Below are positions 27,248 through 59,047 of a stretch of DNA of 64,000 nt, in pieces. The stretch comes from an uncultured Lachnospiraceae bacterium (lineage in GTDB: Bacteria > Bacillota > Clostridia > Lachnospirales > Lachnospiraceae), in assembly GCA_947174705.1 (NCBI GenBank), contig CAMWKB010000003.1, positions 1 to 64,000 of the forward strand, in the 5' to 3' direction. Position 1 is the first letter of the stretch. The number at the start of each line of letters is the position of its first letter. The translations under genes were made by a program, and so were the position numbers. The notes under the pieces are model-generated. The model saw only the letters and a list, made by a program, of their open reading frames with translations, was not told the origin of the DNA and made no database searches.

Positions 27248-27289
27248 AAATATTTTTTGTCTATTTTCTATAAGATTTTTTTAGATTAT

Positions 27290-55594: not shown

Positions 55595-56539
55595 CTAGTT
55601 TAACTTTGCTATCGGATTTATAGGCTCTCCGTCTTTGGTCAGCTTGAAATAAACATTTGCACCTTCCGTACTGTAGTATTTGGTCGGATACGCCACATTA
55701 CCTATAATATCTCCGGTAGCAACATAGCTGCCCTCACTCACCGTAATATTATCAAGCTGTCCATAGGTAAGCTCATATTGATTGCCCAAATCCATCACAA
55801 CCATATTTCCAAGCTGTGGATCATAGCTTACCGAAATAACTTTTCCGTCCGCAGCCGCGGCAATAGTCTCTCCTTCCGTTGCCGCAATCACAATTGCCGG
55901 ATTATATTTATACTGCTCCAATGTCGGAAAATATATGGTCTTGTCCATACTGTAATTTAACAAAATATCGCCCACAATCGGCCAAACCAAACCATCTTCT
56001 TCGCTAAAATCAAGTATCGGCTGGATAGTGGTTGCAATTGCTTCCGTGTCCTCAGGCATTTCCTGCATAGTTTCCCGGGACTCATCAATCATTCCCTCTT
56101 CTTTATTGTCGTCCGCTTTCTTACTATCCTCTTTTTTACTGTCATCTTTTTTTGAGGTTTTATTTTCATCTTCCGTCTTCTTGTCATCCTTAGCACTGGA
56201 TTCGGATTCATCATCGTCTTCGTCTTCGTCATCGTCCTTATCCGAATTTGCTACATTACCTGAATTAGCCTCCTGAAAACTTGGGTCATAATCCAAATCG
56301 TCAGTTCCTACTTCGGTAAACAGTGTTCCTATCTCTTCACTGGGTAGAACATTTTCCGCTGTTTCTGAAAGCCCGCTTTCAATTGCACTAAAATCCACTA
56401 CATTATTACCTTCATCCGTACGTCGGTTACTTCTGACAAAAACTCCTGTAACCGTAAGTGCTGTTAGCACAAGCGCTGCCGAAGCAAGCATAATGATTCG
56501 TTCTTTTCTAACACCATTTCTATTTTTTCTCATATTCAT
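55595..56539 (-). CDS. spoIIQ: SpoIIQ-like membrane M23 protein
   Basis: 314 residues. One N-terminal helix ('IIMLASAALVLTALTVTGVFV'), a long acidic then Lys-rich linker (about 85-150) and a LytM-like domain ('IVIAATEGETIAAAADGKVI', 'LGNMVVMDLGNQYELTYGQL', 'VSEGSYVATGDIIGNVAY'). HxH-type zinc ligands are missing, as in Bacillus subtilis SpoIIQ. SpoIIQ sits in the forespore membrane and binds SpoIIIAH across the gap. The neighbouring spoIID gene supports the sporulation assignment. The charged linker is unusually long. Confidence 0.82.
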   Translation of the reverse strand: MNMRKNRNGVRKERIIMLASAALVLTALTVTGVFVRSNRRTDEGNNVVDFSAIESGLSETAENVLPSEEIGTLFTEVGTDDLDYDPSFQEANSGNVANSDKDDDEDEDDDESESSAKDDKKTEDENKTSKKDDSKKEDSKKADDNKEEGMIDESRETMQEMPEDTEAIATTIQPILDFSEEDGLVWPIVGDILLNYSMDKTIYFPTLEQYKYNPAIVIAATEGETIAAAADGKVISVSYDPQLGNMVVMDLGNQYELTYGQLDNITVSEGSYVATGDIIGNVAYPTKYYSTEGANVYFKLTKDGEPINPIAKLN

Positions 56540-56610
56540 AATTTAAACCCTGCCTCCTACTGAGAAATCATTTTCGTTTTCTGGTGTTATTCTTTCCCGA
56601 ATCTTACATA

Positions 56611-57690
56611 TTATTCAATTTTTGCTAATTCTGTCTGAAAAAAGTAATACTTAAGAATCTGCTCAAAATTTTCTCCCGAAACCGCCCTTTCATTCGCTCC
56701 GTATTGGCTTAACCCAAAACCATGCCCCATCCCCTTTACATGAAAAATTACTTCACCCTCATTCCACTCCGCCTGAAAACTGGCTGAATTTAAACCAAAC
56801 TCATTTCTAAACCTTTCCCCGCTGCATGAAGCTCCTGCAAACCTGGCTTCAATCACATACCCTGCGGTGTCATATGTAAACTCCATATCATTCCATTCGT
56901 TATTCAGTCTGTTTTTTAACTCTTCACCGTCACCATATATTTTCTCAATCACCCGACAATATTCATCCTTAGAAACTATAACCTGACTCTGATAATCCCC
57001 TGACATGATATCTCTACCGCACTCTACGCTTACAAGATAAGGATAACTTATATTTTGCCATACCTGCGACGCATCTCTTGTATGCCCATTGCTTAGTGGG
57101 AAAAAGGCAGCCTTTACCGGCTTATTATCATACGCAAGATAAATTCCGTCCGTCTCATATACTGCCTTTTCATACAACGATTCATCTGTGCTGTCTGATA
57201 TGTTATCCGCTTTATCCTTCGTGTTTTCAGTGTCCACACTCTTACTATAGGGCTCTGAGTTATACATGCTTATATCATCCCGTATAGTAACCGAAGTCTC
57301 TGAATTCAAATCCAAACTGTTATTTAAAAAAAGCGTCCATAACTGCGTCCTCAAAAGCACTGCCTGCGCTTTAAGTGCCTCAAGCTCATACGAAGTCTCC
57401 TCATCTCCCATTACAATTTCCAGCTTCCGAATCAAATATTCCTGCATGGACAACGTCCTGCTTCCCCACTCGCCCTCAAGAATAACTTCATATTTTTTAT
57501 CTATTCGCTTTTCTTCTTTTTCATTGCTGCCAAATACCTTCTCCGTCTCTTCACCGACATGCCCCCACAAACAGGAAATTACATACGGCAATAAAAAAAC
57601 AAACAAAAGCACCGTTCCAACATCCCGATAAGGTCTGTTCTTACAATTGCTTCTGTCTGTTTTTTTTTGGACGATTTTAAATAAGTTCAT
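56611..57690 (-). CDS. spoIID: Stage II sporulation protein D, peptidoglycan lytic enzyme
   Basis: 359 residues. One N-terminal helix ('TVLLFVFLLPYVISCLWGHV') then the SpoIID/LytB domain: 'SMQEYLIRKLEIVM', 'ELEALKAQAVLLRTQLWTLF' (catalytic Glu region) and the C-terminal 'KGMGHGFGLSQYGANERAVSG'. SpoIID trims peptidoglycan stems during engulfment. A Ser/Asp-rich insert (about 150-180) is longer than usual. It lies behind a sigma-E-like promoter and before the SpoIIQ-like gene. Confidence 0.93.
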   Translation of the reverse strand: MNLFKIVQKKTDRSNCKNRPYRDVGTVLLFVFLLPYVISCLWGHVGEETEKVFGSNEKEEKRIDKKYEVILEGEWGSRTLSMQEYLIRKLEIVMGDEETSYELEALKAQAVLLRTQLWTLFLNNSLDLNSETSVTIRDDISMYNSEPYSKSVDTENTKDKADNISDSTDESLYEKAVYETDGIYLAYDNKPVKAAFFPLSNGHTRDASQVWQNISYPYLVSVECGRDIMSGDYQSQVIVSKDEYCRVIEKIYGDGEELKNRLNNEWNDMEFTYDTAGYVIEARFAGASCSGERFRNEFGLNSASFQAEWNEGEVIFHVKGMGHGFGLSQYGANERAVSGENFEQILKYYFFQTELAKIE

Positions 57691-57709
57691 AGGACACCTC
57701 TTTTAAGTT

Positions 57710-57737
57710 TATGTATGAGGTTCCTTTTTAATACTAT
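57710..57737 (-). promoter_or_regulatory. Sigma-E-like promoter of spoIID
   Basis: On the minus strand ATA (57737-57735), a 17-bp spacer and CATACATA (57717-57710), one mismatch from CATACANT, about 20 nt before the start. spoIID is sigma-E controlled in known spore formers. Confidence 0.6.
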
Positions 57738-57755
57738 CGGAAATTGTACCATTTT

Positions 57756-58847
57756 CTACTGTGCCAGATCAAGATGCTGCACAGTGCCGACACTTCCGTT
57801 TTCATATAGAAAAATGCCTGTATTTCTGATTACACCATTATTATGATTATCTGTCATGGAATTCAATGCAAATTCTGTCTGGGCATTTTGCAGGCATATA
57901 GCGCCCACTCCGGCCTCAGCCAATGTATAGAGCTTATCCTTTCCATTTTCATCCTTACACCAGATTAAGAGTTTCTCCCATATCTCGTCATCTTCATCAA
58001 TCCAGCCGTCTCCATCTGTATCATATTTAGCAAGATCCTTAAAACCGTTGCCCGACCGGGTTCCGAACAATTCACTTCCATCATTAATGATACCGTCATT
58101 ATTCAGATCAAGCGCCAGATATCCGCTTCCTGCCTGCAAAGAAGAAATTTCTTCCTTCTCACCGTCACAATCCAGATCAAAGTAAAACTTCTGGTCAGAA
58201 AGTCCCGCTATGTTTGCATCCAGATTGATAACCAACGGATCCGTATACTTTTTCTGAGCCTGCTGCAGTGCACTAAAATCATAATTCTCTGCATAATACT
58301 CTTTAAAGCTTCTGCTCATCTGCAGCTCAAGTCCGAAACTTATCTCCCTTCCGTCTGCGGTCTTTACAATTCCTCTGGTGGAAAACTCTGTTTGTTCCGA
58401 CTCACTGTGATAATACTGGTTGGAAAACCCAACAAAAAGATTGCTTGACGTAACCTGAGATGACAAAGGCTGTGCCTCTTCGATATTATCTTCCCAAACC
58501 ATGTCTCTCCTGTTACCGCCGCCAAACAATATATACATTAGAAACTTCATGCAGGACTGCCTTACGTTCTCTCTGGCTCTTTTCTCCTCCATGCTTGCTT
58601 CTACCCTGCCTGTATTAGACAGGTTACGGAAGTGAAGCGTAACATCCTGTAAAGTAGTCTGCGCATTACTACTTTCACGTTTATTCTTTGCTTCGTCTTC
58701 CATTGCCCAAAAGCCTCCCAGAAATCCATTTCCGTCTCCAGCTGTCAAGCTTCTGGTGTTTGCCCTGTAAAACAAGGCAGATTTTGATGTTACTGAAGAA
58801 TAACTTCTGGCGGATTCCATTCCTATGTTACTGGAATTTATTCGCAA
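57756..58847 (-). CDS. Calcium-loop protein with flagellin-like N-terminus
   Basis: 363 residues starting at TTG with GGAGG upstream. No signal peptide or membrane helix. The first residues 'MRINSSNIGMESARSYSSV' resemble the MRIN-type start of flagellins and FlgL. The C-terminal 150 residues hold calcium-binding loops 'DLDCDGEKEE', 'DLNNDGIINDGSELFG' and 'DTDGDGWIDEDDE', similar to modules in RTX-type exoproteins. I do not recognise a named family. A sigma-D-like promoter precedes it. I infer an export substrate of the flagellar secretion system or a motility-linked surface protein. Confidence 0.7.
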   Translation of the reverse strand: MRINSSNIGMESARSYSSVTSKSALFYRANTRSLTAGDGNGFLGGFWAMEDEAKNKRESSNAQTTLQDVTLHFRNLSNTGRVEASMEEKRARENVRQSCMKFLMYILFGGGNRRDMVWEDNIEEAQPLSSQVTSSNLFVGFSNQYYHSESEQTEFSTRGIVKTADGREISFGLELQMSRSFKEYYAENYDFSALQQAQKKYTDPLVINLDANIAGLSDQKFYFDLDCDGEKEEISSLQAGSGYLALDLNNDGIINDGSELFGTRSGNGFKDLAKYDTDGDGWIDEDDEIWEKLLIWCKDENGKDKLYTLAEAGVGAICLQNAQTEFALNSMTDNHNNGVIRNTGIFLYENGSVGTVQHLDLAQ

Positions 58848-58906
58848 ATATACCTCCTTTTTGCTTTAGCTTAATTCTGCCTGACTTAATTTTGGGCAAA
58901 ATAAAA

Positions 58907-58952
58907 GGACGGTATTTTTATAGAAATTCCCTTTTCCGTAAAAACACCATCC
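58907..58952 (-). promoter_or_regulatory. Leader hairpin with T-run before the calcium-loop protein gene
   Basis: Arms 58907-58920 and 58939-58952 (GGAYGGTRTTTTTA) match at 12 of 14 positions and the differences give G-U pairs. TTTTATTTT follows on the minus strand, as in a terminator. Placed inside the leader, it could be an attenuator. Confidence 0.6.
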
Positions 58953-58974
58953 GTGGCTAAGCATAATTTAAATT

Positions 58975-59012
58975 CAAGGGATGACCGTCTGGCCAGATGC
59001 AGCCATCCCTTG
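58975..59012 (-). terminator. 9-bp hairpin downstream of the aconitase-family gene
   Basis: CAAGGGATG (58975-58983) pairs with CATCCCTTG (59004-59012) with a palindromic TCTGGCCAGA in the loop. It may terminate the hydratase transcript; it also falls at the very 5' end of the transcript from the sigma-D-like promoter. The T-run is poor. Confidence 0.5.
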
Positions 59013-59020
59013 TAATTTAT

Positions 59021-59047
59021 ATATCGGACGATTTATTTTTTTCTTTA
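59021..59047 (-). promoter_or_regulatory. Sigma-D (sigma-28) motility-type promoter
   Basis: On the minus strand TAAA (59047-59044), 15 bp, then TCCGATAT (59028-59021), against the consensus TAAA-N15-GCCGATAW: all of the -35 and 7 of 8 in the -10. It is about 175 nt before the calcium-loop protein gene. Confidence 0.6.

Follow-up and report, generated by a model that had tools for sequence, protein, structure and literature searches.

The locus analysed here raises the question of what a protein with calcium-binding loops does when it is transcribed from a motility-type promoter, and by which route it could leave the cell. It lies in a 64,000-nucleotide stretch of DNA, the window, and an earlier note made from the letters of that stretch read its product as a calcium-dependent adhesin or cap-like protein exported by the flagellar type III apparatus. 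The core intuition of the note, a motility-controlled, possibly flagellum-exported, calcium-dependent and undescribed protein, holds. The adhesin or cap assignment gives way to another one, as the C-terminal domain is related to the self-processing module (SPM) of FrpC, a relationship that suggests self-cleavage and covalent linking triggered by calcium. The reading that we prefer, with a probability of roughly one half, is that of a late flagellar-regulon protein that would be exported by the flagellum and would, through a divergent FrpC-type module, cleave itself in response to Ca2+ and become covalently linked. The features of the locus are collected in Table 1.

Table 1. Features of the locus, with positions in the window.
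Feature	Position	Strand	Remarks
Coding sequence, 363 aa, stop included	57756..58847	-	TTG start; unnamed flagellar-regulon family
Residues 1-22, motif M-x-I-x-S-S-x-I-x-M-x-S-x-R-x-Y	58782..58847	-	Candidate export signal
Helix, residues 86-108	58524..58592	-	After variable low-confidence linker; alignment and AlphaFold2 model
Predicted long β-hairpin, residues 136-190	58278..58442	-	Directly before the module; consensus TxFSTxGTVxTADGREIxFxLxLxMSRSF
Codons of Asp203-Pro204, presumed scissile bond	58236..58241	-	Equivalent to FrpC Asp414-Pro415
SPM-like domain, residues 204-363	57759..58238	-	Profile and structure matches to FrpC
EF-hand-like Ca2+ loop, residues 247-259	58071..58109	-	Equivalent to FrpC site I, D462-E474 (PMC7078468)
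EF-hand-like Ca2+ loop, residues 276-287	57987..58022	-	Equivalent to FrpC site II, D499-D511 (PMC7078468)
Predicted sigma-D (sigma-28/FliA) promoter	59021..59047	-	-35 TAAA 59047-59044, 15-nt spacer, -10 TCCGATAT 59028-59021
First leader hairpin (CAAGGGATGGCTG...GGTCATCCCTTG)	58975..59012	-	Alignable in closest relatives only
Leader motif CCACGGATGG, consensus CCA-N-GGA-N-GG	58947..58956	-	Contains ANGGA
Intrinsic-terminator-like hairpin and U-tract, putative attenuator	58898..58952	-	5' arm overlaps the CCANGGANGG motif

The gene is present in one copy in its own genome. Start codons were assigned from motif and ribosome-binding site; the TTG of the window gene is preceded by AAAAGGAGG, and the protein begins MRINSSNIG, exactly as the earlier note had read it. 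A scan of the protein sequence saw no lipobox, LPxTG motif or transmembrane stretch, and no Sec signal either, in agreement with that note. No Pfam or NCBIfam family describes the whole protein, a sub-threshold EF-hand being the only trace in Pfam, and this bears out the suggestion that no protein of such design had been described. A match to PHROG 3677, labelled 'protease', is confined to the SPM-like stretch and was set aside, and the PHROGs otherwise hold no useful family. Alignment of 32 Lachnospiraceae members divides the protein into three parts, comprising the N-terminal motif, a variable linker that contains a single helix and, from about residue 140 onwards, the conserved C-terminal region, and members from other families of the phylum display the same three-part plan. 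Similar hypothetical proteins may exist in Gammaproteobacteria. From plasmid and viral collections the SPM domain was recovered only as part of larger proteins. Long open reading frames (about 700-3700 aa) of Lachnospiraceae genomes, and of one further clostridial genome, also contain SPM-like domains, some of them without Asp-Pro (loci L115-L123, from genomes G147, G092, G131, G188, G087 and G367).

At its C-terminal end the protein carries a homologue of the FrpC self-processing module. Against solved proteins the family profile has a single significant match in hmmsearch, the FrpC module (PDB 6sjw, E 3.8e-12; E 5.2e-13 with the broader alignment as profile), and the profile E-values to 6sjw and 6sjx range from 5e-13 to 8e-11. 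Two AlphaFold2 models, obtained with different relatives as query and from different alignments, are mostly confident over the C-terminal region (block means about 76-92), and with both of them the significant Foldseek matches are restricted to 6sjx, the precursor, which comes first, and 6sjw, the product (6sjx: E 6.7e-10 and 9.8e-11, probability 1.00, TM to target about 0.7). In FrpC the Ca2+-driven folding of the module puts strain on the Asp414-Pro415 bond, which is cleaved, and Asp414 becomes linked to a lysine; the module displays four Ca2+ sites, the port residues W451, L475, G477 and G491, and the fifth-calcium residue D478 (PMC7078468). According to the alignments, sites I and II are kept, as the loops D247-E259 and D276-D287, whereas sites III and IV are not: site III (D521-E532) is shortened in the family, and the positions of site IV (D419/D421/D423 and D456) are occupied by N208/D210/N212 and S241. 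Similarly, the port residues L475, G477 and G491 are retained as the invariant L260, G262 and G268, with L260 and G262 directly following the first loop, whereas W451 and D478 are not conserved in the family. An invariant Asp, D360, falls no more than about two residues from where FrpC has D579, the alignment itself stopping at FrpC residue 577. The calcium loops that the earlier note described as RTX-like are thus present and EF-hand-like, and RTX nonapeptide repeats (GGxGxDxUx) occur in 0 of 61 members, the window protein and 60 relatives. With sites III and IV, W451 and D478 not conserved, the Ca2+ affinity and the rate could be different from those of FrpC, or the activity could be lost.

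The bond itself is strictly maintained. Asp-Pro is found at the module boundary in all 61 relatives examined, one of which (L038) reads DPLVID at this position. By comparison, it is present in 18 of 25 SPM domains of other architectures, drawn from RTX-type proteins on plasmids, from viral contigs and from long ORFs of clostridia (Fisher p 9e-5 against 61/61), and the seven control domains that lack it, with NS, TP and five times SP in its place, are still recognisable as SPM domains. The bond is therefore dispensable for the persistence of the domain elsewhere, and its invariance here suggests that Asp203-Pro204 is in use in the flagellar-regulon family.

At the opposite end of the protein, M1 and I3 are invariant in the 32-sequence alignment while S5, M10 and R14 are conserved at 90% or more. 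About the first 22-24 residues resemble flagellin N-termini in the same register (similarity p about 0.0016 against column-shuffled versions), a weak and short resemblance that is carried mostly by I3, M10 and R14. The flagellin-like N-terminus proposed earlier stands to that extent; on the other hand, Pfam gives no match to Flagellin_N/Flagellin_C (PF00669/PF00700) or to any other flagellar axial-protein family and, unlike in flagellin, residues 3-31 (58755-58841) are modelled by AlphaFold2 as a long β-strand. The N-terminal segment may act as an export signal. For the very long β-strands modelled in the N-terminal half, Foldseek gave only short, non-significant matches to membrane-attack-complex/perforin hairpins, and these were not counted as a sign of pore formation.

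The promoter noticed earlier, TAAA-N15-TCCGATAT, is indeed present and agrees with TAAA-N15-GCCGATAT at 11 of 12 positions. No other site in the 64 kb of the window combines 11/12 agreement with the canonical spacer of 15 nt; a second 11/12 match (52748, + strand) has a 14-nt spacer, and the other 41 of the 42 long ORFs of the window have no 11/12 match within 300 nt upstream. In the window gene 173 nt separate the end of the promoter from the start codon. The pattern TAAA-N14-16-GCCGATAT is found at 10/12 or better in 26 of 33 upstream regions of Lachnospiraceae relatives (1.8 expected from Markov shuffles) and scores at least 11 in 16 of the same 33 (0.1 expected), and in 17 of 19 non-redundant relatives that belong to other families of the phylum TAAA-N15-17-CCGATA reaches at least 9/10 (0.5 expected), all these counts being taken over relatives at unequal distances. 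The phylum-level boxes lie mostly 30-90 nt upstream of the start codon, and their pattern agrees with the Butyrivibrio sigma-28 consensus, TAAA-N16-17-MCGATAa (PMC3720852). Judged by the conservation of its promoter across the phylum, the gene is a member of the sigma-D regulon, and the motility control assumed in the earlier note is thereby sustained. A FliA above the cut-off was not found in the gene's own assembly, which is 84.5% complete. The flagellar/chemotaxis contig of this genome (C24, flhA-cheD; L076) stops right after cheD, its end being at 27289, and in a congener (G060) cheD is closely followed, with one small ORF between, by the gene for a sigma factor of the FliA/WhiG family (266 bits, cut-off 190); the missing sigD is therefore probably an assembly gap.

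The distribution of the gene follows that of flagella. It is matched in 68 of 250 Lachnospiraceae genomes, two of which (G092 and G131) have the match only inside very long ORFs, and in 36 of 300 genomes spread over the phylum, several as fragments only. FlhA, present in 129 of the 250 Lachnospiraceae genomes, is found in 67 of the 68 carriers versus 62 of 182 non-carriers (Fisher p 3e-23), and in the phylum set in 36 of 36 carriers versus 246 of 300 genomes overall (p 8e-4), with p-values that treat related genomes and are not fully independent tests. The sole carrier without FlhA, G235, has four flagellins and is for this reason counted as flagellated, and a phylum carrier, G363, with FlhA by fragment only, has two flagellins. 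Thus, 68 of 68 Lachnospiraceae carriers are flagellated, and none of the 120 Lachnospiraceae genomes without FlhA or flagellin evidence carries the gene. Homologues in non-flagellated species, which the earlier note had named as the observation that would speak against it, were looked for in both genome sets (250 and 300) and no counter-example was seen. The 62 flagellated Lachnospiraceae genomes without the gene are about half of those with flagella, and flagella therefore do not depend on the gene. Some distant relatives have it beside flagellar genes: in two of them, from a single genus, it adjoins flaG and fliS, and in another family it lies near fliS, a neighbourhood that points to the filament stage. 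The window locus sits amid sporulation and metabolic genes, not flagellar ones: the neighbouring genes are SpoIID-like, of the peptidase M23 type and of the aconitase family. A genome of a different genus, G235 (L082 4285-7278), has the gene order of the window (55595-58847), SPM gene - SpoIID-like - M23 peptidase, and the linkage of the SPM gene with sporulation-type genes is conserved in part of the family. In the closest relative, a TwoAYGGAY RNA (Rfam, 133 bits; L008 3257-3424, - strand) lies a few hundred bases away from the SPM gene.

The leader between promoter and gene displays conserved elements of its own. The motif CCA-N-GGA-N-GG is present in 22 of 32 Lachnospiraceae leaders (L006-L038) versus 0.11 expected. 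The terminator-like hairpin that overlaps it in the window has an MFE of -22 kcal/mol (z -4.0) and is not among the calls of a consensus terminator scan; similar hairpins are found in most relatives with the motif, which usually forms the start of the hairpin, with a U-tract after it. Within its own genome this leader is the only copy of the motif with an evident hairpin followed by a U-run, the other three matches lacking an evident hairpin as judged by eye. The leader has no Rfam match. The bases flanking CCANGGANGG pair no more than shuffles (15/20 versus 14.4), which gives no covariation support, and a small CsrA-type hairpin is therefore not demonstrated. As the terminator-like hairpin often lies near the gene and leaves little room for a second promoter, readthrough is probably needed for expression. 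The CsrA recognition motif has ANGGA as its core, and csrA is found in the genome of the window. In other Firmicutes, CsrA-FliW are tied to flagellin (PMC6529632, PMC8523840). Together these three points make a putative CsrA-controlled antitermination switch a reasonable hypothesis for the leader. Two flagellin leaders (L087 and L089) contain GGCAAGGATGCC-like hairpins whose loop carries AAGGA, upstream of the ribosome-binding site, as would be expected for CsrA control of flagellin. In the leader of L012, an element around GCAGCCCCGAGCTTTGCGAAGCAAATTCT.ATGCGAGGGGTTCC, which has no Rfam match at the gathering threshold, is repeated in tandem (two copies) between the terminator-like hairpin and the SPM gene.

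In the mechanism that we propose, transcription would start from the conserved sigma-D promoter, so that, judging by sequence conservation, the protein would be made when flagellin is made. It would most likely exit through the flagellar type III export apparatus, by means of the conserved N-terminal segment together with the unstructured stretch that follows it; this putative route is plausible. In the cytoplasm, which is low in calcium, the C-terminal module would be unfolded and inactive. Outside the cell, by analogy with FrpC, Ca2+ would fold the module and strain Asp203-Pro204 until the bond breaks, leaving fragment 1-203 with a reactive aspartyl anhydride, to which a lysine close by could then be joined through an isopeptide bond. 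In this way the N-terminal fragment would be covalently attached to its support, which might be the filament or cell surface, a partner cell or material of the host, and the module would be released. A fuller version, in which flagellar export and the Ca2+-triggered Asp-Pro cut end with the N-terminal half welded to a lysine of filament, cell surface or host and in which, in Lachnospiraceae, a CsrA-governed antitermination leader ties the gene to flagellin homeostasis, is offered tentatively, the odds being somewhat against the whole of it.

The strictness of the Asp-Pro bond is also what separates this mechanism from its nearest rival, a flagellum-exported surface protein with a cleavage-inactive SPM-like domain that Ca2+ would only fold or stabilise. 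Such an ordinary calcium-dependent adhesin or filament-associated protein, the reading closest to the adhesin of the earlier note, would account for the loss of two of the four FrpC Ca2+ sites together with W451 and D478, and the regulon and co-occurrence data fit it equally well. A purely structural domain would, however, be expected to lose Asp-Pro at times, as the domain family at large tolerates (18/25 keep it), and conservation in 61/61 makes an inactive domain rather unlikely. The missing Sec signal, the weak flagellin resemblance of the N-terminus and the fact that export of the protein is itself an inference would also suit a cytoplasmic or basal-body motility-linked factor, whose EF-hand-like loops sense rare influxes of calcium and whose module survives as a structural remnant. 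We consider this improbable, as the clip-and-link modules of known function act extracellularly, cytosolic Ca2+ being far below their affinity of about 150 µM (PMC7078468), and as the flaG/fliS neighbourhood of some relatives points to the filament stage.

The route of export deserves separate weighing. In its own host the FrpC module depends on type I secretion and not on the flagellum, which counts against flagellar export, and SPM domains elsewhere, in our own collection and in the literature (PMC7078468), belong to large type I-secreted RTX-like proteins. The protein could accordingly share flagellar regulation only and leave the cell by another way, such as type I-like export or lysis, but the absence of RTX nonapeptides from all 61 members and the essentially complete co-occurrence with flagella render this very improbable.

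Should the preferred reading, flagellar export followed by calcium-triggered self-cleavage and linking, be true, flagella would gain a way of making covalent bonds outside the cell, and flagellated Clostridia would possess a flagellum-delivered covalent labelling system. The family, which is under predicted sigma-D control, occurs in about half of the Lachnospiraceae with flagella and also in further families of the phylum, and the reading provides a testable function hypothesis for a common gut-bacterial protein without a family name. Clip-and-link chemistry has already been turned into a protein-ligation tool, NeissLock (PMC7846742, PMC12538545), and the family would supply SPM domains with a different calcium-site set for protein engineering.

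Experimental reports of clip-and-link chemistry concern only RTX proteins of Gram-negative pathogens (PMC7078468), and no literature joining SPMs and flagella was found among open-licence papers; what is predicted here is a new architecture for a divergent SPM, not a proven active one. The closest known system is the FrpC module of Neisseria meningitidis (6sjw, 6sjx; Kuban et al. 2020, PMC7078468) with its ApxIVA counterpart, whose domain is homologous to the C-terminal domain described here and has the same predicted fold. Common to both are the boundary Asp-Pro, the first two EF-hand-like Ca2+ sites (I and II) and three port residues, L475/G477/G491. In contrast to FrpC, the window family, which is known from sequence, belongs to Gram-positive flagellated hosts, has a sigma-D promoter and no RTX repeats, carries the module as the C-terminal end of a protein about 360 aa long, and has not kept Ca2+ sites III and IV, W451 and D478. 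RTX exoproteins, which are type I secreted (PMC3034196), resemble the window protein in their acidic Ca2+-binding loops and, in some cases, an SPM domain, whereas the window protein is small, is without GGxGxDxUx nonapeptides and is under flagellar regulation. Flagellin shares with it the sigma-28 promoter usual for flagellin genes and the weak resemblance of the N-terminus; in contrast, the window protein has no Flagellin_N/Flagellin_C match and no D0 helices, and its N-terminus is modelled as a β-strand. Enzymatic domains on flagella have a precedent in flagellinolysin, the protease-bearing flagellins (PMC7643111). Similarly, the FlgE hook of Borrelia burgdorferi (PMC4032328) shows that flagellar proteins outside the cytoplasm can form complexes of unusual stability that appear to be covalent, although there periplasmic hook subunits are joined to each other, with neither an SPM nor Asp-Pro cleavage.
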